A stretch of 24,833 nucleotides of DNA from IMG/VR virus record IMGVR_UViG_3300040806_002508, positions 1-24,833 of that record, one strand, 5' to 3'. Origin of the DNA: a virus. The position numbers and the translations under genes are program-made. Shown one piece after another: positions 645 to 23,108 of the stretch; the stretch's first letter is position 1; every line of letters starts with the position of its first letter. The notes beneath the pieces are model-generated. The model was not told the origin of the DNA. It made no database searches and was given only the letters and a program-made list of their open reading frames with translations.

Positions 645-661
645 ATGGGTTTATGACCCAT
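645..661. repeat. Inverted repeat before late promoter
   Basis: The sequence is a perfect 6-bp inverted repeat with a 5-nt loop (ATGGGT-ttatg-ACCCAT). It sits between two divergent genes and abuts the TATAAATA element. It could be an operator or a chance palindrome. Confidence 0.4.
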
Positions 662-668
662 ATAAATA
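661..668 (+). promoter_or_regulatory. Exact T4-type late promoter TATAAATA
   Basis: This is a perfect 8/8 match to the T4 late promoter core. It faces the plus-strand gene starting at 678. Only 9 nt separate the motif from the ATG, so the transcript would be leaderless or nearly so. Confidence 0.6.
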
Positions 669-7358: not shown

Positions 7359-7880
7359 TCATCTCAGAAATTCGGTGATGTCCAAATTGTACAGCAATGG
7401 ATTTATCTTGTGTACCCCTATCAGGAACAAACAGAAACTGGCCACACTTGATCCCCTACCAACACCCCAAACTATGTTGTTTGCTCTCAGTGTGTCTATG
7501 AAGTATATCAGGAACTGTAGCACACGTATGAAATCCTTCTTCTCGAACAGATCATACTCCATCTGTACACGCATCTTCTCCTCATCGTTCTGACACTTGT
7601 CTAACAACCATTGTAGGACATTTATTTGGTAATACTTCTCGGGCATATGCCAATGGTCACAGTTGGCCTTGTCGAATTCCTTGAGTCCTGTTTTCTTTTG
7701 TATGGCTTTCACCACTGGAAGATCTATACCCAACTGCTTCAAACTGTTAGAATACTTGTCAATGTCCTCGAGGTATAATTTTGATATGTCGAAGTCTGGA
7801 TCTGTGTAGAGCAAGTCAATGACATCCTCTTCCGAGAATATCACATCACCAAAATCATTTATTTTTGTCTTTTCCGCCAT
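7359..7880 (-). CDS. Stand-alone DNA polymerase III alpha-like fragment
   Basis: This 173-residue protein ends in VWGVGRGSSVASFCLFLIG followed by HKINPLLYNLDITEFLR. This matches the GRGS box of bacterial DnaE/PolC palm domains, which contacts the incoming nucleotide's triphosphate, and the following PLxYxLxFERFL stretch. The catalytic Asp motifs that lie farther on in DnaE are absent, and the protein stops a few residues after the box. It therefore cannot be a polymerase on its own. The N-terminal 90 residues are acidic and helical. It overlaps the 211-residue gene upstream by 26 nt. It may be a remnant or a repurposed nucleotide/polymerase-binding domain. The missing remainder is not found nearby. 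Confidence 0.65.
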   Translation of the reverse strand: MAEKTKINDFGDVIFSEEDVIDLLYTDPDFDISKLYLEDIDKYSNSLKQLGIDLPVVKAIQKKTGLKEFDKANCDHWHMPEKYYQINVLQWLLDKCQNDEEKMRVQMEYDLFEKKDFIRVLQFLIYFIDTLRANNIVWGVGRGSSVASFCLFLIGVHKINPLLYNLDITEFLR

Positions 7881-12068: not shown

Positions 12069-13496
12069 TTAAGATTCGTCGTAGAACGGAATAACTCTCA
12101 TTGTACCGGCGATCTTGATCTTGATATAGCCTGTTGGCGTACCTGGCAATGCCGATGCACCTCCCGCCGATCCCACAGTTGATTGTGTGGCCGTGTTAAG
12201 ATCCACAACTCCAGTACCCTGTGTGCTGATTGAAATGTCACCATCTGATGTATCATTCTGTAAGGTGTCTGCCCTCACAGTTGTGGCCTCCATCAACGTG
12301 AAGTTGGCCTCTGTGGCAGTAAGTTTCACATTGGTACCTCCAACCGCAACGTTCTGTCCTGCGGCAGGTGATAGTGTGATACCGCCTGATGTCGCTGACA
12401 CTGTGTTGCCGTCCAATCTCAAGTTGTCAACATTAAGTTGTCCTGTTGTGGTCTGTGTTCCTGCGTGAGTGATTGGTCCTGTTAGTACGATAGCACCTGT
12501 TCCAGCCGGATCGATCGTTATGTCTCCGTTTGTGTCAGAAGTGATAGTACCGTCTGCGATAATATTCAAGTCACCAACTGCAAAAGTTCCTGTGGTCAAT
12601 GATCCTGACACAGTTGTGTTACCCGTCGTGGCAACGTCCGCCGTGTTCAACGTTCCTACCACTGTTGTGTTTGGTATGATTCTGACCTGTCCTGTTCCCG
12701 ATGCGTCTAGTTCTAGGTTTGCATTCGAGGCGTTGGTTGTGATTGTGTTGTCGGCCATTGAAATACTATCAACGGTCACCGTTCCTGTCATCGTGGCCGC
12801 GTTGATTGTAGGTGCTGTTAGAACTTTATTTGTTAAAGTTTGAGATCCTGTTAGTGTGGCAACCGTTCCATCAATCGCCGTTGTGACTGTGTTTCCCGTC
12901 GCACTTGTGGTTATACCAGTTCCACCAGAGAACTGCATCACCTCCGAATCAAGATCAATTGAATTGGTAGTCGAGTCGTCTGCTGTGAAATCTAGATCTG
13001 CGGCTGTTACCTGTGCATCAACATAGGCTTTGATAGATTGTTGTGTTGCCAAAGCAGTTGCTGAATCTGATCCCATGGCATCTTCGTCTAGTATACCTGT
13101 TACAGTTGCACCCGACGCCAGTGCCAATGATGTGCTCAAAGTTGTGGCACCTGTGATCGTTGCCGCACCCGCGACATTCAACGTGCCTGTTGTCTGTATG
13201 TTCTCTGCTATTGTGATCTGTGTCGAATCGTCAGAACTCAAGGTCGTGCCAACGAATTTCATCGCACCCAGTTTGATGCTACCTGTGCCATTTGGTGTGA
13301 TGGTTATGTCACCGTTAGTGACCCCTGTTGTGATAGCGAACGTGTTCACATCTAGATTTGCATCAAGCGTGTTGATGTCATTATCTGTACCGTAAAGTTC
13401 CACGAAGTTGTCGTTGATCTTGTCAAATGCTGTTCTTAGTGGATCACCCGTGCCGTCGTTAGCACTTGATCCTATGTTGATGTTCTGTCTAGCCAT
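12069..13496 (-). CDS. Fibre-like structural protein 1 (shared N-module)
   Basis: This 475-residue protein is the first of four paralogues (by position). All begin with a module reading INIG...NDGTGD.LR.A..KIN.NF.ELY, here residues 1-35. The rest is Thr/Ser/Gly/Asn-rich beta-repeat sequence with units such as GDITITPNGTGSIKLG and ANLELDASGTGQVRI. An ATQQSIKAYVDAQV segment, often found in phage fibres, is also present. It ends in a short beta domain (IKIKIAGTMRVIPFYDES). The likely role is a tail-fibre or baseplate-attached fibre. Low sequence complexity makes homology weak outside the module. A late promoter lies 29 nt upstream with AAGGAT between. Confidence 0.75.
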   Translation of the reverse strand: MARQNINIGSSANDGTGDPLRTAFDKINDNFVELYGTDNDINTLDANLDVNTFAITTGVTNGDITITPNGTGSIKLGAMKFVGTTLSSDDSTQITIAENIQTTGTLNVAGAATITGATTLSTSLALASGATVTGILDEDAMGSDSATALATQQSIKAYVDAQVTAADLDFTADDSTTNSIDLDSEVMQFSGGTGITTSATGNTVTTAIDGTVATLTGSQTLTNKVLTAPTINAATMTGTVTVDSISMADNTITTNASNANLELDASGTGQVRIIPNTTVVGTLNTADVATTGNTTVSGSLTTGTFAVGDLNIIADGTITSDTNGDITIDPAGTGAIVLTGPITHAGTQTTTGQLNVDNLRLDGNTVSATSGGITLSPAAGQNVAVGGTNVKLTATEANFTLMEATTVRADTLQNDTSDGDISISTQGTGVVDLNTATQSTVGSAGGASALPGTPTGYIKIKIAGTMRVIPFYDES

Positions 13497-13525
13497 ACTT
13501 TATGTTAATCCTTTTTTGTTATGGG

Positions 13526-13532
13526 TATTTAT
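13526..13532 (-). promoter_or_regulatory. Late promoter ATAAATA
   Basis: The minus strand reads ACGATAAATACCCAT. It lies 29 nt before the ATG at 13496 in the 64-nt gap between two fibre genes. The AAGGAT ribosome-binding site lies downstream of it. Confidence 0.6.
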
Positions 13533-13560
13533 CGTAAATTCTATAAACCTAATGTAATTA

Positions 13561-15147
13561 TTATAGGTCTATTATGACTCTCTGGAATTTGAACACTGTG
13601 CTGTCGTTGGTGATGTTGGTGGCCAATAACCTGACGTTGCCATCATCGATGTCCGCCGTGAATGTGCAAAGTGGATCCGTGTAAGATCCCGTGTTTCCAA
13701 ACACGGTAACGTAGGCCTCCGTGGTGCTGTCAGCACTTGGGCCGTGTACCAGTGTGGCTTCCACCATCTCGAACCTGCTGTTGGTGGTGTCTGATATGGA
13801 GATGTAGTACTTGGCACTCCTGTACGAAGCACTAGACCAACTGTCTATGACGGTGGTGGCAGATGTGGCCACAGTTGCGGTGTTGTCACCGATCTCGGAG
13901 TGGTTCAGTGTTGATGCATTCGATATGGTCACGAATCCTATGTTGCCCGCACCGTCCGTCTTCAGCACTTGGCCCGCTGAACCGTCTGACGTTGGGAAAC
14001 TGAAACCGCTGATGGACACCGTTCCCGTGCCATTGCCTGAAAGTTCTAGGTCGGCGTTAGAGGCATTTGACGAGATCGTGTTGTCTGTTATGGTCACACC
14101 ATCGATGGTCATTCCACTTGTGGTTGACAATGTGGTGAATGTTGCCGCCACCGGTGTGGTCGCACCGATCACGGTGTTGTCGATGGCACCACTGTTGATG
14201 TCCGCTTTGGCCATCACTACGGATCCTGTTCCGCTCGCTGATAGCACTAGTTCTGAGTTGGACTGCGTGGTTGTGATCGTGTTGTCTGTGATGTTGATAT
14301 TGGAATCTATGGTCAGGTTGCTGATGTTCACTGTTCCGGTACCTCCCGGTGTTAGGTTCAGGTCAGCGTTTGAACTGGTGGCTATGATATTGTCATTGAA
14401 CGTGATGTTGTCTATGGTGGTTGTACCCGTCAGGGTCGTTGCTCCTGTGACAGACAAAGTCGAAAGTGTTGTGAGTCCACTCACGTCCAGTGTTCCTGTA
14501 GTGGTTATGTTCTCATCGCCGAAACTGATATCTCCAGATGAGTCGGTGATCGACCCATTGGCCAGTGTTAGGTTTCCAATCGTGGATCCTGTTGCCACAG
14601 TCATGGTGCCCGTGGTGGTTATGTTCTCATCGCCGAAACTGATGTCCCCCGATGAGTCAGTGATCGACCCATTGGCCAATGTTAGATTCCCGATTGTGGA
14701 TCCTGTTGCGGCATTCAATGTTCCCACTGTGGCCGTGCCTGAAACACTAGCAGTTCCGTCTACGATCAAATTCTCGTTGATGTTGATCGCTGTGGAATCA
14801 TCCGAGCTCAAACTTGTCCCGTTGATTTTCAATGCTCCAAATATCACAGATCCGGTGCCATTCGGCAGTAAATTTATGTTTTCATTTGATCTCGTGCCTT
14901 CGATGTTGTTGTCATTTATCCTGATGGCCGGGAAGGCCACGGCACCGGTGCCTGCAGGTGAGAACACCAGATCATCGTTTGATCTAGTGGCGGATATCTC
15001 GTTCCCGCTGAAATCAAGGTCACCACCTGTGAGTGGAGATAGGTACAGTTCCGTGAACATGTCGTTCACTTTAGTCATTGCGGATCTCAGAGTATCACCT
15101 GTGCCGTCGTTTGCGTTTGAACCTACATTTAATGTTTGTTGTGCCAT
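13561..15147 (-). CDS. Fibre-like structural protein 2 (shared N-module)
   Basis: This 528-residue paralogue opens with LNVGSNANDGTGDTLRSAMT followed by KVNDMFTELY. It then has repeated 'SN.DL.L.P.GTG.V' units (for example NADLNLTPGGTGTVNIS). Residues about 144-219 are two tandem copies of a 38-residue unit (GSTIGNLTLANGSITDSSGD and onward). The C-terminal about 110 residues form a beta domain (SYRSAKYYISISD, DIDDGNVRLLATN, VFKFQRVIIDL) shared with the next gene. Its ATG is 1 nt from the stop of the upstream paralogue (TAA-C-ATG), so translation is coupled. Only a weak ribosome-binding site is seen. The likely role is a tail fibre. Confidence 0.78.
   Translation of the reverse strand: MAQQTLNVGSNANDGTGDTLRSAMTKVNDMFTELYLSPLTGGDLDFSGNEISATRSNDDLVFSPAGTGAVAFPAIRINDNNIEGTRSNENINLLPNGTGSVIFGALKINGTSLSSDDSTAININENLIVDGTASVSGTATVGTLNAATGSTIGNLTLANGSITDSSGDISFGDENITTTGTMTVATGSTIGNLTLANGSITDSSGDISFGDENITTTGTLDVSGLTTLSTLSVTGATTLTGTTTIDNITFNDNIIATSSNADLNLTPGGTGTVNISNLTIDSNINITDNTITTTQSNSELVLSASGTGSVVMAKADINSGAIDNTVIGATTPVAATFTTLSTTSGMTIDGVTITDNTISSNASNADLELSGNGTGTVSISGFSFPTSDGSAGQVLKTDGAGNIGFVTISNASTLNHSEIGDNTATVATSATTVIDSWSSASYRSAKYYISISDTTNSRFEMVEATLVHGPSADSTTEAYVTVFGNTGSYTDPLCTFTADIDDGNVRLLATNITNDSTVFKFQRVIIDL
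14489..14716 (-). repeat. Two tandem 114-nt units in fibre gene 2
   Basis: The same 114-nt segment occurs twice with an exact period (anchor TCATCGCC at 14513 and 14627). The copies differ by a handful of mostly synonymous bases (for example ATATCTCCA versus ATGTCCCCC), which shows selection on the protein after duplication. Confidence 0.85.
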
Positions 15148-15148
15148 G

Positions 15149-16735
15149 TTATACTTTTATCACCCTTTTCACGAATTTTATTACTTGGTTGTTAGTGTTA
15201 TTTACTGTTCCTAGCAACCTAACGTTGCCGCCCGATATGTCCGCACTCAACACTATTGATTCATACGCAGTTGATCCATCTCCCTGACCGTTGCCTACAC
15301 GTGCAAAAGAACTGACATAGGCGTTGGTCCCGTCGTGTGTGACGTTGGCCTCCACCAATGCGTACCTGTCCGCGGTGCTGTCTGACATCTGTATCAAATA
15401 TTTCACGCTCCTGTGTGTTGACGCACTGAATGAATCTATGGTCTGTGTCGAGGAGTCGCCTGTTATGGTGACCGTGCCATCCGCTATGTCTGATTCCACG
15501 TACAGGATTGGGAAGGTGGTCAAGGAGAGGTTCTTGGATGCATCCGTCTTTATGAATTGTCCCGCCGCATATGAGTTTGGCCAACTGAAACCATTTATTG
15601 AAACGTTGCCTGATCCACTGGCACTGATCTCAAGGTCAGCGTCGGTGGTGTTGACCGTGATCTGGTTGTCCTTGATGTTGAGCTGTCCTGCATTTAACTG
15701 TGTGTTTGTGAAGGACACCGTGGTGAAGGTTCCAGCGGCCGGTGTGGAGGCGCCTATCACTGTGTTGTCGATGGTGCCTGAATCTAGATCGATGTTTGAA
15801 ATCTGTGTGGAGCCCGTGCCATTGCCTGACAGCACCAGGTCGTCATTGGATCTGGTGACCTTGATCACGTTGTCCGTGAGGTTGATGCTGGAGTCTATGG
15901 TGAGATTGCTGACATTGACAACTCCCGTGCCACCTGGCGTAAGATTCAGATCCGCGTTTGAACTGGTTCCTATTATGTTGTCATTGAACGTGAGGTTGTC
16001 CACCGTGGTAGTTCCGGCAAATGAAGATGCACCGGACACTGTGGCACTACCCAATGTTGTTGCTCCTGCATTGAAATTCCCCGTGGTGGTTATGTTCTCG
16101 TCGCCGAAACTGATGTCTCCAGATGAGTCAGTGATTGACCCGTTTGCCAGTGTTAGGTTACCTATAGTGGATCCTGTGGCCACAGCCAGTGTTCCTGTGG
16201 TGGTGATGTTCTCGTCGCCGAAACTGATGTCTCCAGATGAGTCCGTTATGGATCCATTGGCCAAAGTTAGATTCCCGATTGTGGATCCTGACTGAGCACT
16301 CATGGTGCTGGATATCACTACGTTTCCGGTGGTTGTGAGATCACCGTCCACTGTTAAATTTTCATTAATGTTTATCGTGCTGGAATCGGTGGCAGTGATT
16401 GACGTACCAGAGAATCCCAGTCCGTCTATGACCAATTGACCTGATCCGTTTGGTATGAATTTTATGTCCTCGTTTGATCTTGTGCCCTCGATGTTGTTGT
16501 CGTTTATCTTTATCGCCGGGAAAAGCACAGCACCAGTGCCGGATGGTTTCAACACTATGTCCGCGTTGGAATCGGTTGAACTGATCTCGTTCTGATTGAA
16601 GCCCAGCGTGGTTGCAACCAACGGATCAGCGTACAACTCCGTGAAGTTGTTGTTGATCTTGATGCCCGCACGCCTTATGGTATCGCCCGTGCCGTCGTCC
16701 GCGGTTACACCTATGTTTATCAGTTCCTGTGCCAT
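15149..16735 (-). CDS. Fibre-like structural protein 3 (shared N-module)
   Basis: This is exactly the same length (528 residues) as fibre protein 2 and clearly its duplicate. The N-module reads INIGVTADDGTGDTIRRAGI then KINNNFTELY. The beta-repeat middle has the same 114-nt tandem repeat at the equivalent place (residues about 145-220). The matching C-terminal domain reads HRSVKYLIQMSD, ADISGGNVRLLGT, IKFVKRVIKV. The middle and tip segments diverge between copies. A late promoter ends 10 nt before the ATG. Its stop is 1 nt from the start of protein 2. The likely role is a tail or baseplate fibre with possibly distinct specificity. Confidence 0.78.
   Translation of the reverse strand: MAQELINIGVTADDGTGDTIRRAGIKINNNFTELYADPLVATTLGFNQNEISSTDSNADIVLKPSGTGAVLFPAIKINDNNIEGTRSNEDIKFIPNGSGQLVIDGLGFSGTSITATDSSTININENLTVDGDLTTTGNVVISSTMSAQSGSTIGNLTLANGSITDSSGDISFGDENITTTGTLAVATGSTIGNLTLANGSITDSSGDISFGDENITTTGNFNAGATTLGSATVSGASSFAGTTTVDNLTFNDNIIGTSSNADLNLTPGGTGVVNVSNLTIDSSINLTDNVIKVTRSNDDLVLSGNGTGSTQISNIDLDSGTIDNTVIGASTPAAGTFTTVSFTNTQLNAGQLNIKDNQITVNTTDADLEISASGSGNVSINGFSWPNSYAAGQFIKTDASKNLSLTTFPILYVESDIADGTVTITGDSSTQTIDSFSASTHRSVKYLIQMSDSTADRYALVEANVTHDGTNAYVSSFARVGNGQGDGSTAYESIVLSADISGGNVRLLGTVNNTNNQVIKFVKRVIKV
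16074..16301 (-). repeat. Two tandem 114-nt units in fibre gene 3
   Basis: The same unit as at 14489-14716 appears with the same period (anchor TCGTCGCC at 16098 and 16212). The four copies across the two genes show that duplication preceded or was spread by gene conversion. Confidence 0.85.
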
Positions 16736-16745
16736 AATTTAATGG

Positions 16746-16752
16746 TATTTAT
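16746..16752 (-). promoter_or_regulatory. Late promoter ATAAATA
   Basis: The minus strand reads CCATAAATACC, 10 nt before the ATG at 16735. There is no room for a normal ribosome-binding site. Confidence 0.55.
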
Positions 16753-16754
16753 GG

Positions 16755-17588
16755 TTACGGAGAGACGTTCTTGAATGGATGATCACTGGGCAGATTACCG
16801 GTCAAACCCCACTTGTGCGCCAGGTATCCCTCGGCCTTTTCGAGTGTTGTGATATCTGTTGCACCCGTACCTGGTAAGTCAGCCACCATCATAAACTCCG
16901 CACATTTGCCTGCAAGTCGATTGCCGCCTCTGTTTTTACAAATTCTAACGTCCTGGTTGGTGTTGATGGCATTGTCATAGTCGTTGACTGGGGTGAATAT
17001 GTTAGCACCACTTACTCTACAACCAATTTGATTGCCTGTCTTGTTTAAGAAAAGGGAAATAATATACCAAGTGTGATTAGATAAACCACTGTCCCAGGCT
17101 TGACTGTTGCCTATAGTTGATGAGATTCTATCGGAACTCAATCCATCCAGATCTAACTCACCATCCCAAGTACTGGCGTTGCTGGCACTGATAGCATAGT
17201 CTCTCTTTGAACTGGCCGAGACTGTGCTGTTCTCCACACTCCAGAATGAGTCTTTTACGTTGTCAACTGATGTGTAATGGAATACTCCAGCACACCAATG
17301 ATTTCCGCTTGATGCTACTGCTTGTTCCGAACTTGTTGTAAAATCCTCCGCGCCATCAAAACTAAATGTGTTATAACCGTTTAGGCCTGTTAGGTTATTA
17401 GGTGTTCCTGTTATAGTAATTGTTGAGAAGTTTCCTGACTTATCTGTCACAGCAGTGTACTCATTCGAACTTAATGTATAACTGTTAGTGTCCGCCCCGT
17501 CTATCCAAAATGATGTGCTGATGCTGTCTGAAGGATTCCAATTGCTACCGCCAACTGTGATGATGTGTCTGTGTTTACCCAGAGGCAT
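16755..17588 (-). CDS. LamG/concanavalin-like structural protein
   Basis: This 277-residue protein has a jelly-roll-like alternation of strands and ends in KAEGYLAHKWGLTGNLPSDH followed by PFKNVSP. That ending is very typical of LamG/lectin-like domains in marine phage and bacterial surface proteins. FWIDGADTNSYTL near the start is also common in that group. It probably binds glycans, perhaps as a fibre-associated receptor-binding or decoration protein. It lies between fibre genes 3 and 4. The ribosome-binding site (AGGAGGA) overlaps the stop codon of the upstream fibre gene, giving coupled expression. Confidence 0.65.
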   Translation of the reverse strand: MPLGKHRHIITVGGSNWNPSDSISTSFWIDGADTNSYTLSSNEYTAVTDKSGNFSTITITGTPNNLTGLNGYNTFSFDGAEDFTTSSEQAVASSGNHWCAGVFHYTSVDNVKDSFWSVENSTVSASSKRDYAISASNASTWDGELDLDGLSSDRISSTIGNSQAWDSGLSNHTWYIISLFLNKTGNQIGCRVSGANIFTPVNDYDNAINTNQDVRICKNRGGNRLAGKCAEFMMVADLPGTGATDITTLEKAEGYLAHKWGLTGNLPSDHPFKNVSP

Positions 17589-17592
17589 CCAG

Positions 17593-17599
17593 TCCTCCT
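17593..17599 (-). promoter_or_regulatory. Strong ribosome-binding site overlapping stop codon
   Basis: The minus strand reads TAGGAGGACTGGATG. The stop TAG of fibre protein 4 shares bases with the AGGAGGA site of the LamG-like gene, tying its translation to that of the fibre. Confidence 0.65.
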
Positions 17600-18854
17600 A
17601 TGATGACCTGTAGTCCTTGGCAATGTTGCCCAGGAAGTTGGTTCCGTCGTTGATGATCGTCACGACATCGATGTCTCCACCGCCTGTGGATAGTGTGCTA
17701 CTGTTGGATGGGAACTTCACAGCACTTGAACCGTCAGTGCCAAATGTGGCCGTCCTTGTTCCTGTGCCATCCTGTGTGATGATCAATGTGACTGAACCAC
17801 CCGTTGGTAGGTTGGTGATGTTGAATTCTGTGTTAGTGCCTAATGTGACAGTGTGTATGCTGGCCGCCGAACAGTCAACTGTGATGGTCGAGCTCGAAGT
17901 TAATGAATTGATCTTCTCAATGTATCCGGCGTTGAATGTCACCGGACCCTGTGCGACAACTCCGCCCGTGCCCGATGGGTCAAGTGTGATGTCGGCGTTT
18001 GAAGGTGATTGAATAGTTGAACCGTTGAATGTGATGTCACCCGTTGAACCACCGCCCACTGAATCTGCGTATGCTTTCACAGCCGCTGATGTTGGGATTG
18101 TCGTGTCGTTGTTGTTTGATCCTATGCCCTCACCTGCTGTCACTATGCTGGCCGCGGCAAAGTCCGCAACTTCTAGATTGCTTATACTATTTCCAGTGCC
18201 GTTGGCGTCTATTGTCTTGTTGGTGAATGTCAATGTGTCTGATGCTATGTTGGCATCCTCGGCATCAACATAGGCCTTGATCGACTGTTGTGATGCGATC
18301 GCTGTGGCACTGTTTGATGCCATGTTGTCCTCGTCAAGGAACACACCCGAAGTGAAGTCCGCGATGTCGATGTTTGAAATACTATTGCCCGTGCCGTTGG
18401 CGTCGAATGTCTTGTTGGTAAATGTTGTTGTTGAACTCGCTGTGACATCACCTGCCGCTGACGCTTCCAATCCTATGGTGCCTGTGCTGTGATCGTACGT
18501 GAACACGTAGTTGTCTTCGCTGGCTCCCACAGTTTGATCTGCGTTGAAAGTAAAGTTACCTAACACAACATTACCTGTTCCGTTAGGAGTGATCGTGATG
18601 TCCGAATTTGTAGTGATGCTTGAGATTGTGCTGTTTTGTATTGATAAAGTGTCAATCTCTATAGAACCTGTTCCGTTGGCCTGTAGTTTTAGGTCACCGT
18701 TCGTTACATCAGTGGCTATTAGACCAGATGATCCATCCCTCACCAAAGAGTATACTTCCGTGAAATTCGTGTTGATTTTCTGCATAGCGGTACGTAGAGT
18801 ATCGCCTGTGGCTGGATTTCCCTGTACACCTATATCTATATTAATTCTCGCCAT
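17598..18854 (-). CDS. Fibre-like structural protein 4 (shared N-module)
   Basis: The 418-residue product starts at MARINIDIGVQG (ATG 18854). A longer frame back to 18953 is rejected because it crosses the palindromic promoter and has no family match. The N-module ends TGDTLRTAMQKINTNFTEVY. Two internal repeats (NKTFDANGTGNSISNIDIAD and NKTIDANGTGNSISNLEVAD) and an ASQQSIKAYVDAEDAN segment follow. The C-terminal beta domain (VTLGTNTEFNITNLPTGGSV, then NDGTNFLGNIAKDYRSS) resembles the tip domain of the 187-residue protein. It is the first gene of the fibre block in transcription order. Confidence 0.78.
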   Translation of the reverse strand: MARINIDIGVQGNPATGDTLRTAMQKINTNFTEVYSLVRDGSSGLIATDVTNGDLKLQANGTGSIEIDTLSIQNSTISSITTNSDITITPNGTGNVVLGNFTFNADQTVGASEDNYVFTYDHSTGTIGLEASAAGDVTASSTTTFTNKTFDANGTGNSISNIDIADFTSGVFLDEDNMASNSATAIASQQSIKAYVDAEDANIASDTLTFTNKTIDANGTGNSISNLEVADFAAASIVTAGEGIGSNNNDTTIPTSAAVKAYADSVGGGSTGDITFNGSTIQSPSNADITLDPSGTGGVVAQGPVTFNAGYIEKINSLTSSSTITVDCSAASIHTVTLGTNTEFNITNLPTGGSVTLIITQDGTGTRTATFGTDGSSAVKFPSNSSTLSTGGGDIDVVTIINDGTNFLGNIAKDYRSS

Positions 18855-18865
18855 AATCTGATACT

Positions 18866-18882
18866 CGTATTTATTAAATACG
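18866..18882. promoter_or_regulatory. Perfect 17-nt palindromic bidirectional late promoter
   Basis: The sequence is CGTATTTA-T-TAAATACG, an 8+1+8 perfect palindrome. Each half carries a late-promoter core (TAAATACG). It sits in the 31-nt gap between divergent genes 17598-18854 (minus) and 18886-19164 (plus). One element can therefore read both ways. Confidence 0.6.
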
Positions 18883-18885
18883 AAT

Positions 18886-19164
18886 ATGTTCGTAGAAACC
18901 CTTAAAACCATCAAGTTGTACAAGAGGGAGAGCAAGTACGGGGTCATGCACAACTATCGAAGGCGGAACATGATCTACGTGTTCAGGTGTGACGCCTGTT
19001 CCGAGACATTCCAGAGGCCCAAATCCAAGGTGGATCCCGCTCGTGCCTCAAACGACTACAAGCACGTGTGCAGTAATTGTGATTCCAAGAAGTTTGCCCA
19101 AAGCGTGGGCGTCAAAATGCGTCGGGTGTATCAACTGGACGCCAGCAGTACCAAGACCCTATAA
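18886..19164 (+). CDS. Small Cys4 zinc-finger protein
   Basis: This 92-residue plus-strand protein has C35-x2-C38 and C62-x2-C65. The spacing is 23 residues and many Lys/Arg lie between, consistent with a zinc ribbon that contacts nucleic acid. The N-terminus is basic (KLYKRESKYG, HNYRRRN). A full HNH nuclease motif is not visible. The ATG lies only 3 nt from the palindromic promoter and has no ribosome-binding site, so a leaderless message or a later start (Met21 or Met29) must be considered. Its 3' end overlaps the convergent gene by 6 nt. Confidence 0.65.
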   Translation: MFVETLKTIKLYKRESKYGVMHNYRRRNMIYVFRCDACSETFQRPKSKVDPARASNDYKHVCSNCDSKKFAQSVGVKMRRVYQLDASSTKTL

Positions 19165-21258: not shown

Positions 21259-22357
21259 ATCCTCGCTTCAACCCTTCTATCTGTATCTGTTTCCATTCAT
21301 CTCCGTCAAGTGTGTATGGGTAATCAGTCTCTACCGACGGTCCATATATTGTCCTAATGCTGGTTATGTTCAAATTGTCATTCATGACTCTGTGTATCTT
21401 ATGTATGGAGGCATCTGTGCCAAATGTTCTCTGTAGATCAACCTGTCCTATCTTGATGTATCCAAGCGACAACTTCGGATCTTCCCAATCGTACCCGTTG
21501 TCTTCCAACCATGACCTGTATTCGTCCATCTCTTTCTTCTTGAAATCATCCTGCTCGGTTATTGTTTTACCCCACTCAACATCAAACTCACCAGAATAAT
21601 ATCGTTGGTGGTTGATCTCAGAACACAACGCCTCGGTCATCTTTGGTGCGTGTTCATCTCTGAATACTTCATACAGTGTCTTGCCAACCTGGCTCCAGTG
21701 CAAGTACACACCACCCAATTCCCTATCATACCTGTTTTCCTTGAACAGTTCAAAATCCTCTTCGTGTAGGTCGTGCCTGGGTGCGTTGAGAAAGGTGGTT
21801 ATCTGAGATGGCCTCATCCATTCCGGTTCGAATGCCTTTTTCCTGTCGGCGTTGACCCAACTTTCGATCTCGTGGCAGATGTTGTTGAGTTGTCGGATCG
21901 CGTATTTGGTTTCTGCGTCTGCCTGTTTGTAGTAGTCGGACATTTGCCAGGCGGTGCCCTGTAGTTCCTCGAAATACCTATGCAGTAAATTACAGGCCTC
22001 GTGTTTGAGTTTTTTACCTGGACTGTTCTTGCCCACCGGCAGTCTTGAACTGTACTGGAAATCGTCAGCACTGAAAGGATGTATCTTTTCATACGCTGGA
22101 CTGAAGTCAAAGGAGTTTATTTTGGCGATACTTTTATTAAGTTCACCCACGAGATGCTGTAGATTCCTCTTTGAATCTGCGAAACCAAGGAAGCAGAAGT
22201 TCTTTTCTAATATTCTTTGTTGTTTAAGGTTGTCCTTCAAGGCCGCCAACCACCTGTGTCCTAAGGGGGTGTCGTATATCTGGAAGTAGTAGGCCTTTTC
22301 GGTCAGGCCCACCCTAACTATATCATGGATGAATTTATTCTTTTCTGTAGATGGCAC
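21236..22357 (-). CDS. Conserved phage protein, unknown function (about 373 aa)
   Basis: The open frame extends back to 22480 but that stretch lies inside queD. A GTG at 22357 (GTG CCA TCT ACA), with GGAG 7 nt before it, is the most plausible start and overlaps the end of queD by 23 nt. The protein starts near KNKFIHDIVRVGLTEKAYYF. It has helical stretches, repeated WxxxxxxY-like aromatics and many Lys/Glu, and no membrane segment. No domain is recognised. I have seen similar proteins in marine T4-like phages without a role. Its position between queD and a glycosyltransferase is the only context. Confidence 0.6.
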   Translation of the reverse strand: MPSTEKNKFIHDIVRVGLTEKAYYFQIYDTPLGHRWLAALKDNLKQQRILEKNFCFLGFADSKRNLQHLVGELNKSIAKINSFDFSPAYEKIHPFSADDFQYSSRLPVGKNSPGKKLKHEACNLLHRYFEELQGTAWQMSDYYKQADAETKYAIRQLNNICHEIESWVNADRKKAFEPEWMRPSQITTFLNAPRHDLHEEDFELFKENRYDRELGGVYLHWSQVGKTLYEVFRDEHAPKMTEALCSEINHQRYYSGEFDVEWGKTITEQDDFKKKEMDEYRSWLEDNGYDWEDPKLSLGYIKIGQVDLQRTFGTDASIHKIHRVMNDNLNITSIRTIYGPSVETDYPYTLDGDEWKQIQIEGLKRGYESRSVR

Positions 22358-22784
22358 TGTTGGCTCCGTGTTCCATACATTCCACTTCCACCACGTAACA
22401 TCTGTTGTCAGTCTTTTCCCTGACCAACTTGTCCGCGAAGTCAAATGCGTGTTTGGCGAACATCTCCGCACCGACACCATCGAACTCCACGATCTCCGCT
22501 AGGTCGTGTTTCTCAAGTTCTTTTAACTTGTCCAGGTGTGGGTCATTGATGTCAACAGCGGTCTTGTGATCGAAGTGATCCTCCAACCATTTCTTCAGTG
22601 GCTTCAGTGATCCGAAATCCACCGCCCAGTTCTTGTTGTCCAGTCGATCGCAACCGAATGTGAATCTGAATGCGAGGCTGTATCCGTGTAGCAAATGGCA
22701 GTGTGAGTGGTCTGCGTTGGGTTGTCTGAACACGCAGGCTAGTCCTATGTTGTGTCCGTATGTTTTAGTCGAGTAGTAAGTCAT
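22335..22784 (-). CDS. queD: QueD / 6-pyruvoyl-tetrahydropterin synthase family protein
   Basis: This 149-residue enzyme of the PTPS/QueD family makes 6-carboxytetrahydropterin or a related pterin on the preQ0/queuosine route. Motifs are HSHC-x3-HGYS (Cys29, His33), FDHKTAV (His73 with Asp72) and VECMEHGANSA (Glu138). The Zn-site HGH of classical members is HGY here (Tyr35), with extra His at 26, 28 and 30. I recall this variant in alphaproteobacterial and marine phage QueD-like proteins. Only queD of the pathway is in this window. A strong ribosome-binding site (AAGGAG) precedes the ATG, and the start is in a predicted stem (see leader). Confidence 0.85.
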   Translation of the reverse strand: MTYYSTKTYGHNIGLACVFRQPNADHSHCHLLHGYSLAFRFTFGCDRLDNKNWAVDFGSLKPLKKWLEDHFDHKTAVDINDPHLDKLKELEKHDLAEIVEFDGVGAEMFAKHAFDFADKLVREKTDNRCYVVEVECMEHGANSAIYRKE

Positions 22785-22853
22785 CGTTTCTCCTTGCGTT
22801 GATGACTTGCAGAGTGTTTATAGAGGGTTGAAAGTCTTGAGTCCTCTCGATCA
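22778..22853 (-). promoter_or_regulatory. Structured queD leader, two exclusive folds
   Basis: The 69-nt gap before queD plus its first codons can fold two ways in the minus-strand RNA. (1) AAGTCATC (22801-22808) pairs perfectly with GATGACTT (22778-22785), burying the ATG in an 8-bp stem with the AAGGAG site in the 15-nt loop. (2) AGAGG (22843-22847) pairs with CCTCT (22822-22826). Its loop GACTT (22832-22836) pairs with the same AAGTC (22804-22808), forming a pseudoknot that would release the start. A shorter pseudoknot pairing AGA/UCU would put an A-rich AUAAACAC linker between the helices, as in preQ1-I. A CAAC-CCUCU junction also resembles that class. The resemblance is by topology only. 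A TATAAACA within it could instead be a late promoter. Confidence 0.45.
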
Positions 22854-23108
22854 TCAGTTCAACTTCTTGTCCAACTTCTGATCCATGTCCATCTGGAACG
22901 CTGTGTCTCTGATGCGATCCGTCAGTTCGTTCGGTATATTTAACTCACCGTCTATGATACTCTTAAGGAAGTGTATCATCACAGTGAACTCGTTCCTGTT
23001 GGCCACGGTTTCTGGATCTATACCGTGTTTCTCCATGGCGTTCAGCATGGCTTCTGATACATCTACCAGGGCCTTGATGCTCGTTGAGTGCTTGTCAAAG
23101 TGTGCCAT
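22854..23108 (-). CDS. Small helical phage protein, unknown (84 aa)
   Basis: The 84-residue product is almost all helix, acidic, with evenly spaced hydrophobics (ALVDVSEAMLNAMEKHGIDP, IHFLKSIIDGELNIPNELTD). No motif is recognised. Start and upstream stop overlap as TAATG with the Sm-like gene, so the two are translated together. Its stop (TGA, 22854-22856) is immediately followed by the queD leader. Confidence 0.6.
   Translation of the reverse strand: MAHFDKHSTSIKALVDVSEAMLNAMEKHGIDPETVANRNEFTVMIHFLKSIIDGELNIPNELTDRIRDTAFQMDMDQKLDKKLN

Follow-up and report, generated by a model that had tools for sequence, protein, structure and literature searches.

The stretch of DNA analysed here (the window; 24,833 nucleotides, positions 1 to 24,833 of the IMG/VR virus record IMGVR_UViG_3300040806_002508) carries on its minus strand a queD-like gene encoding 149 aa (22335-22784), which is preceded by the leader described below. 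The product was assigned to the PTPS family by Pfam (PF01242, E 1.8e-15) and to the QueD-like proteins by PHROG (2389, E 1.6e-41), which agrees with the name queD given to the gene in a first-pass annotation of the sequence, but it scored below the NCBIfam QueD cut-off and the exact reaction of the enzyme is therefore not certain. An LHGY motif is present in the protein at the position where classical QueD has LHGH. Immediately upstream of the leader lies an 84-aa gene (22854-23108, minus strand) with no Pfam or PHROG family match. As regards the pathway, 12 of 18 records contain folE and 11 of 12 a homologue of queE, and no convincing copy of queC was detected in the records searched with a protein query, which was run without a positive control. 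In known phages the products of this pathway serve to modify DNA with 7-deazaguanines, which shields it from restriction (PMC6884629).

Elsewhere in the window, a T4-like late-promoter sequence (TATAAATA, 661-668, plus strand) is located immediately 5' of a plus-strand open frame starting at 672. A 173-aa open reading frame (7359-7880, minus strand) matches, along its full extent, a PHROG of short DNA polymerases (11127), which suggests that the polymerase gene is split, and several long adjacent frames at 12069-18953 (minus strand) share repeated motifs (e.g. NLTLANGSITDSSGDISFGDENITTTG) and are probably tail-fibre-like paralogues.

Two mutually exclusive folds in the queD leader

All features of the leader are read on the minus strand. 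Directly at the start of queD, AAGTCATC (22808-22801) pairs perfectly with GATGACTT (22785-22778) to form an 8-bp stem, referred to as the trap, with the ATG (22784-22782) inside its 3' arm and the Shine-Dalgarno sequence AAGGAG (22795-22790) within its 15-nt loop; both partners are kept in 102 clade members. Further upstream, AGAGG (22847-22843) and CCTCT (22826-22822) form the stem P1, for which pairing and compensatory changes were observed in homologues. The two strands of P1 enclose L1 (ACTCAA, 22842-22837, 6 nt in the window), the 5' strand of P2b (GACTT, 22836-22832), the U of a conserved U.C mismatch within P2 (22831), the 5' strand of P2a (CA, 22830-22829) and L2 (NC, 22828-22827), the last assigned from the alignments and by comparison with preQ1-I (PMC11625349). 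The 3' strand of P1 is followed by L3 (ATAAACACTC, 22821-22812), which is A-rich with a near-invariant UC at its end, by UGC (22811-22809), of which U and G pair with the CA of P2a and C stands opposite the mismatched U, and by the 3' strand of P2b (AAGTC, 22808-22804). As AAGTC is complementary to GACTT and also belongs to the trap, it is common to pseudoknot and trap.

The first-pass annotation had described the trap stem, with the start codon in it and AAGGAG in its loop, and the AGAGG/CCTCT stem upstream, and both are present in the window as described. Its GACUU/AAGUC helix exists as well, but is only part of P2, which goes on through the U.C mismatch into two more pairs. The proposal that an H-type pseudoknot and a start-codon trap exclude each other is now supported by compensatory changes and matched trap partners in homologues. 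The window leader does not stand out in folding energy (z -0.44; an equal or better fold in 66 of 200 shuffles), so that the window sequence alone could not prove a structure; the homologues do.

Distribution and conservation of the element

Most near relatives of the window queD in viral contigs (84-100% identity) have almost the same leader. Across 102 related leaders the core showed a mean divergence of 3.3%, compared to 43% at 4-fold sites of the adjacent queD, indicating strong selection on the leader. At more distant queD loci both helices recur with other sequences, namely AGAGG/CCUCU, UGAGG/CCUCA, AGCGG/CCGCU and AGUGG/CCACU for P1 and GACUU/AAGUC, AACG/CGUU, GGCG/CGCC and CAGCA/UGCUG for the pseudoknot. 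A DNA pattern built from the conserved parts, TCATCCCN{4,8}AAACTCTGC, matched at least 120 stretches, and among the matches listed a perfect P1 was found in 83 of 92 queD-preceding copies and in 0 of 13 other sites; the pattern did not fully include P1, and the 83 of 92 are free of the selection for this stem that affects alignment A3 below. Several of the remaining nine copies differ in one pair, have a single base inserted or escaped scoring as their context was cut.

Altogether we collected about 190 distinct copies in more than 200 viral contigs, both as lower bounds, and every one of them is upstream of a queD-like gene. The element is thus present in hundreds of uncultured aquatic phages and abundant in aquatic viromes. 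When 18 records were searched whole, 17 of them (the window and 16 large contigs) gave exactly one strong match each, and the eighteenth, a chance pattern match, served as negative. One strict pattern applied to 84,980 bacterial and archaeal genomes led to a single contig with a copy, a short contig from a Bacteroidetes metagenome bin. Among named phages, a BLAST search with the element returned only short chance matches and no isolate, and five queD loci of named phages gave no match to the new covariance model; where inspected in named phages, queD directly adjoins the gene before it or overlaps with it. Close queD relatives (~79-87% identity) at twelve loci have no element (L056, L058, L071, L074, L075, L077, L210, L243, L261, L262, L284, L285), and gain or loss of the leader thus occurs between near relatives.

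Covariation and architecture of the pseudoknot

The elements follow one order of P1 (5 bp), L1 (NCU and a variable stretch), P2b (4-7 bp), U.C, P2a (2 bp), L2 (NC) and L3 (~10 nt). The covariation in related phages that the first-pass annotation had proposed to look for turned out to be strong in both P1 and P2. In a first alignment of 66 non-redundant copies (A3), P1 was paired to 97% and P2 to 79% in a single fixed register, and the covariation score was 0.587 compared to 0.168 ± 0.017 for shuffled controls, which ignore kinship among the sequences, and to at most 0.13 after sliding, a control that allows for kinship. As collection of these copies demanded at least 4 pairs in P1, this stem is partly selected and P2 is unselected. 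A covariance model (R1) recovered further copies missed by the collecting script, and the model-based alignment of 76 copies (A4) gave a score of 0.513 (shuffled 0.153 ± 0.012), with P2b paired to 81% in a single fixed register and compensatory changes in all five pairs, and P2a paired in 100% of cells. Over the 66-76 distinct elements P1 is paired to 96-97%, with compensatory changes in three of its five pairs, invariant GG/CC pairs and a G-C closing pair in 76 of 76 copies (A4). In four copies of A4 (L440, L457, L486, L454) UCANC is changed to UCGNC jointly with a change of CUCUGC to CUCCGC, an A-U to G-C compensatory change, which shows that P2 runs on through the conserved U.C mismatch into two more pairs.

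Among the loops, L1 starts with NCU in the copies read and varies in length, nearly every copy keeps the C of L2 that adjoins the P1 3' strand, and L3 is A-rich with UC at its end and shorter in one clade. In this clade (L283, L428, L464, L471, L475, L480, L482, L468, L481, L460) the shortened L3 (UAAUUCUGC) occurs with a P1 of AAGG/CCUU, so that loss of the A-rich stretch is possible. Six copies (L309, L340, L451, L450, L441, L429) have at least one extra base between UCA and the P1 3' strand (e.g. UCAUCC|CCGCU) and offer a natural test of the geometry of the L2 pocket. A possible outer helix TGATGA/TCATCA in the window clade was discarded, as several copies lack it and the stop codon of the upstream gene accounts for it.

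The competing trap

For 157 distinct leaders we scored the pairing of a strand from the P2b 3' arm with the start codon or Shine-Dalgarno region. The mean best-helix score was 16.1 within leaders versus 11.3 between leaders, and in ~90% of the leaders the trap overlaps the P2b 3' strand; as the trap partners are matched within leaders, the two folds compete throughout the family and not merely in the window. The trap covers the start codon in most copies, including the window, as in AAGUCAUC/GAUGACUU (window), UGUCAUUG/CAAUGGCA, CCAUUAUUA/UAAUAAUGG, UGUCAUCUU/AAGAUGGCA, GCCAUUG/CAAUGGC and CCCAUAA/UUAUGGG, or else the Shine-Dalgarno sequence, as in CCUAUG/CAUAGG(AG). Within the CCUAUG...CAUAGG trap of some freshwater copies a TATAAT was noticed and set aside as loop, since the arms are kept and the TATAAT is not. 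In the window clade the base at -1 (G) and codon 2 (ACT) are invariant (102/102), and Thr codon 6 varies (ACT, ACA and ACC in 77, 18 and 7 leaders). The median energy of the trap was -5.5 kcal/mol versus -3.0 kcal/mol for the bare P2 duplex, a figure without pseudoknot loop terms, and the window trap reaches about -8 kcal/mol. From these medians the trap is favoured over the P2 duplex, and the pseudoknot would require an effector to persist. Short or weak traps occur in L076, L270, L467, L476, L478 and L479.

Taken together, compensatory changes and matched traps leave almost no doubt that the leader is a genuine, conserved RNA for which two folds compete.

Transcription start

Among 106 distinct upstream sequences from outside the AGAGG clade, TATAAT was found upstream of P1 in 38 (0.9 expected) and a late-type TAAATA or TAAGTA in 46 (2.3 expected). 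In many copies the -10 element is separated from P1 by about 7 nt, and the motifs are mostly located 10-16 nt before P1, so that in those copies the mRNA begins with the element or in its immediate vicinity. For the window clade, the preceding gene reaches right up to the element.

Comparison with known regulatory RNAs

The layout resembles that of the preQ1-I riboswitch, an H-type pseudoknot with a G-C floor and a C reading the guanine-like face of the ligand (PMC11625349). Like preQ1-I (RF00522; types I-III), the element is an H-type pseudoknot of ~45 nt with a 5-bp P1 closed by G-C, a conserved C immediately 5' of the P1 3' strand, which is the position of the preQ1-I specificity base, and an A-rich L3, and the controlled gene belongs to the same pathway. 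In contrast to preQ1-I, its L1 is longer, the ligand contacts U6 and A30 are not kept (base 6 of L1 is A, U or C), a C instead of an A precedes the P2 3' strand, whether extended or not, in nearly all copies, and an additional conserved CUC-UGC with the U.C mismatch is present. Furthermore, the Shine-Dalgarno sequence lies outside P2, whereas translational preQ1-I switches bury part of it there, and the output is predicted to be ON instead of OFF. The preQ1-II (RF01054) and preQ1-III (RF02680) classes share with the element a pseudoknot, translation control and queuosine-related genes, but are HLout folds of four or five helices.

The first-pass annotation had suggested comparison with the Rfam preQ1-I, II and III models by Infernal, and membership of these classes was not supported. 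RF00522 at its gathering threshold gave 0 matches in the window or 10 loci, and at E ≤ 10 none on 16 short stretches; in 16 whole contigs no match fell on the element and chance sites scored higher, and in the 17 whole records with a copy the model misses all of them. The element site of L024 reached ~10 bits compared to a cut-off of 39 bits. Rfam searches at gathering and permissive thresholds led to nothing credible for the element, which is uncatalogued, and the open-access literature searched, with most subscription papers falling outside, contained no description of it. In its working the element would be a pseudoknot switch of preQ1-I type with a different platform, and it cannot be filed as preQ1-I. 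The manA and wcaG motifs are structured RNAs upstream of metabolic genes in marine T4-like phages (PMC2864571), but the element precedes different genes and neither motif was matched in the Rfam searches. The element looks like a new, phage-restricted genetic switch outside the catalogued RNA families.

Proposed mechanism and alternatives

As in riboswitches, an aptamer-like conserved domain and a competing expression platform are combined in a 5' leader, and we consider the leader to be a phage-restricted translational switch, most likely a small-molecule ON riboswitch (probability roughly 60%). Without effector the trap would be the more stable fold and queD would be off. An effector would bind in a pocket between P1 and P2, formed by the conserved C of L2, the G-C floor of P1, the CU of L1 and L3, and the bound pseudoknot would keep the shared strand, so that the trap opens and queD is translated. 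This reading is favoured by covariation above shuffled and slid controls, the exclusive association with queD and the matched traps, by the divergence of the core, the distribution of P1 among the pattern matches listed and the single strong match per record, and by the trap energy, the -10 elements, the presence of folE and queE and the preQ1-I-like layout. Against it count the loss of U6 and A30 as such, the confinement of all copies to phage-like contigs, where leader-regulating proteins are common, the less usual polarity of an ON switch for a biosynthetic gene, the weak traps of some copies and the element-free queD relatives.

A guanine- or pterin-like small molecule is the most likely effector, with a protein resembling Com of phage Mu as the main rival. 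In Mu, Com binds a structured site beside a hairpin that contains the start codon of mom, and presumably activates translation by melting this hairpin (PMC6483171). Opening of the trap in the same manner, by an RNA-binding protein of phage or host that recognises the pseudoknot, is less likely: logic and kind of gene (DNA modification) are the same, with a start codon in a hairpin opened by an upstream structured site, and near-invariant loops would also suit a protein site, but in Mu a zinc-finger protein binds a simple stem-loop, with no pseudoknot described, whereas very different phages share the pseudoknot of the element and its pocket-like arrangement. No candidate for a dedicated activator emerged: the upstream 84-aa gene matches no Pfam or PHROG family, and a similar sequence, as judged by eye, precedes queD in several element-free contigs as well.

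An OFF switch, in which the bound pseudoknot blocks ribosome access and the second hairpin is incidental, appears improbable. The translation-controlling preQ1 classes do occlude or sequester the Shine-Dalgarno sequence when bound (PMC11625349), and P2 lies a few to ~15 nt before it; in the clades read, however, this sequence is not within P2, and different clades preserve the second hairpin through matched partners, as does the invariance of codon 2 and of the base at -1.

That a promoter or operator in the DNA, or a short coding frame, takes the place of an RNA switch is very improbable and largely refuted already. TATAAACA inside the element looks like a T4-like late promoter, but the window has 2 TATAAAYA sites, no enrichment over the 1.66 expected, the promoter-like -10 elements lie upstream of P1, and P1 and P2 show compensatory pairing. 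The window element can likewise be read as a short open frame (DFHPSINTLQVI), but this upstream frame is broken by ±1 nt changes in L1 (element length shifts the frame in 57 versus 45 sequences) and third positions are frozen in most of its codons. An RNA thermometer, with the trap of about -8 kcal/mol as the only relevant structure, is hardly credible, as it leaves the strong conservation of the upstream pseudoknot unexplained.

For the small-molecule ON riboswitch, likely ligands are compounds of the pathway or its surroundings that present a guanine-like face, for example GTP, 7,8-dihydroneopterin triphosphate, another pterin or a 7-deazaguanine. Whether it is a new phage-confined class in which a pterin or 7-deazaguanine intermediate (or GTP/dGTP) is the signal that switches queD ON, with a preQ1-I-like pocket rebuilt with different contacts, is at present an evenly balanced question. 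Virus-confined structured RNA switches are few, and this one accompanies just one family of genes. Should it prove to bind a metabolite, it would directly link the sensing of guanine, pterin or deazaguanine pools by the phage to protective DNA modification. As an ON version of the preQ1-I layout it would also help to study how the same small pseudoknot can acquire other ligands and reverse its output. If the sensing of a pterin or 7-deazaguanine (or GTP/dGTP) is true, DNA modification in these phages would depend on the supply of its precursors.
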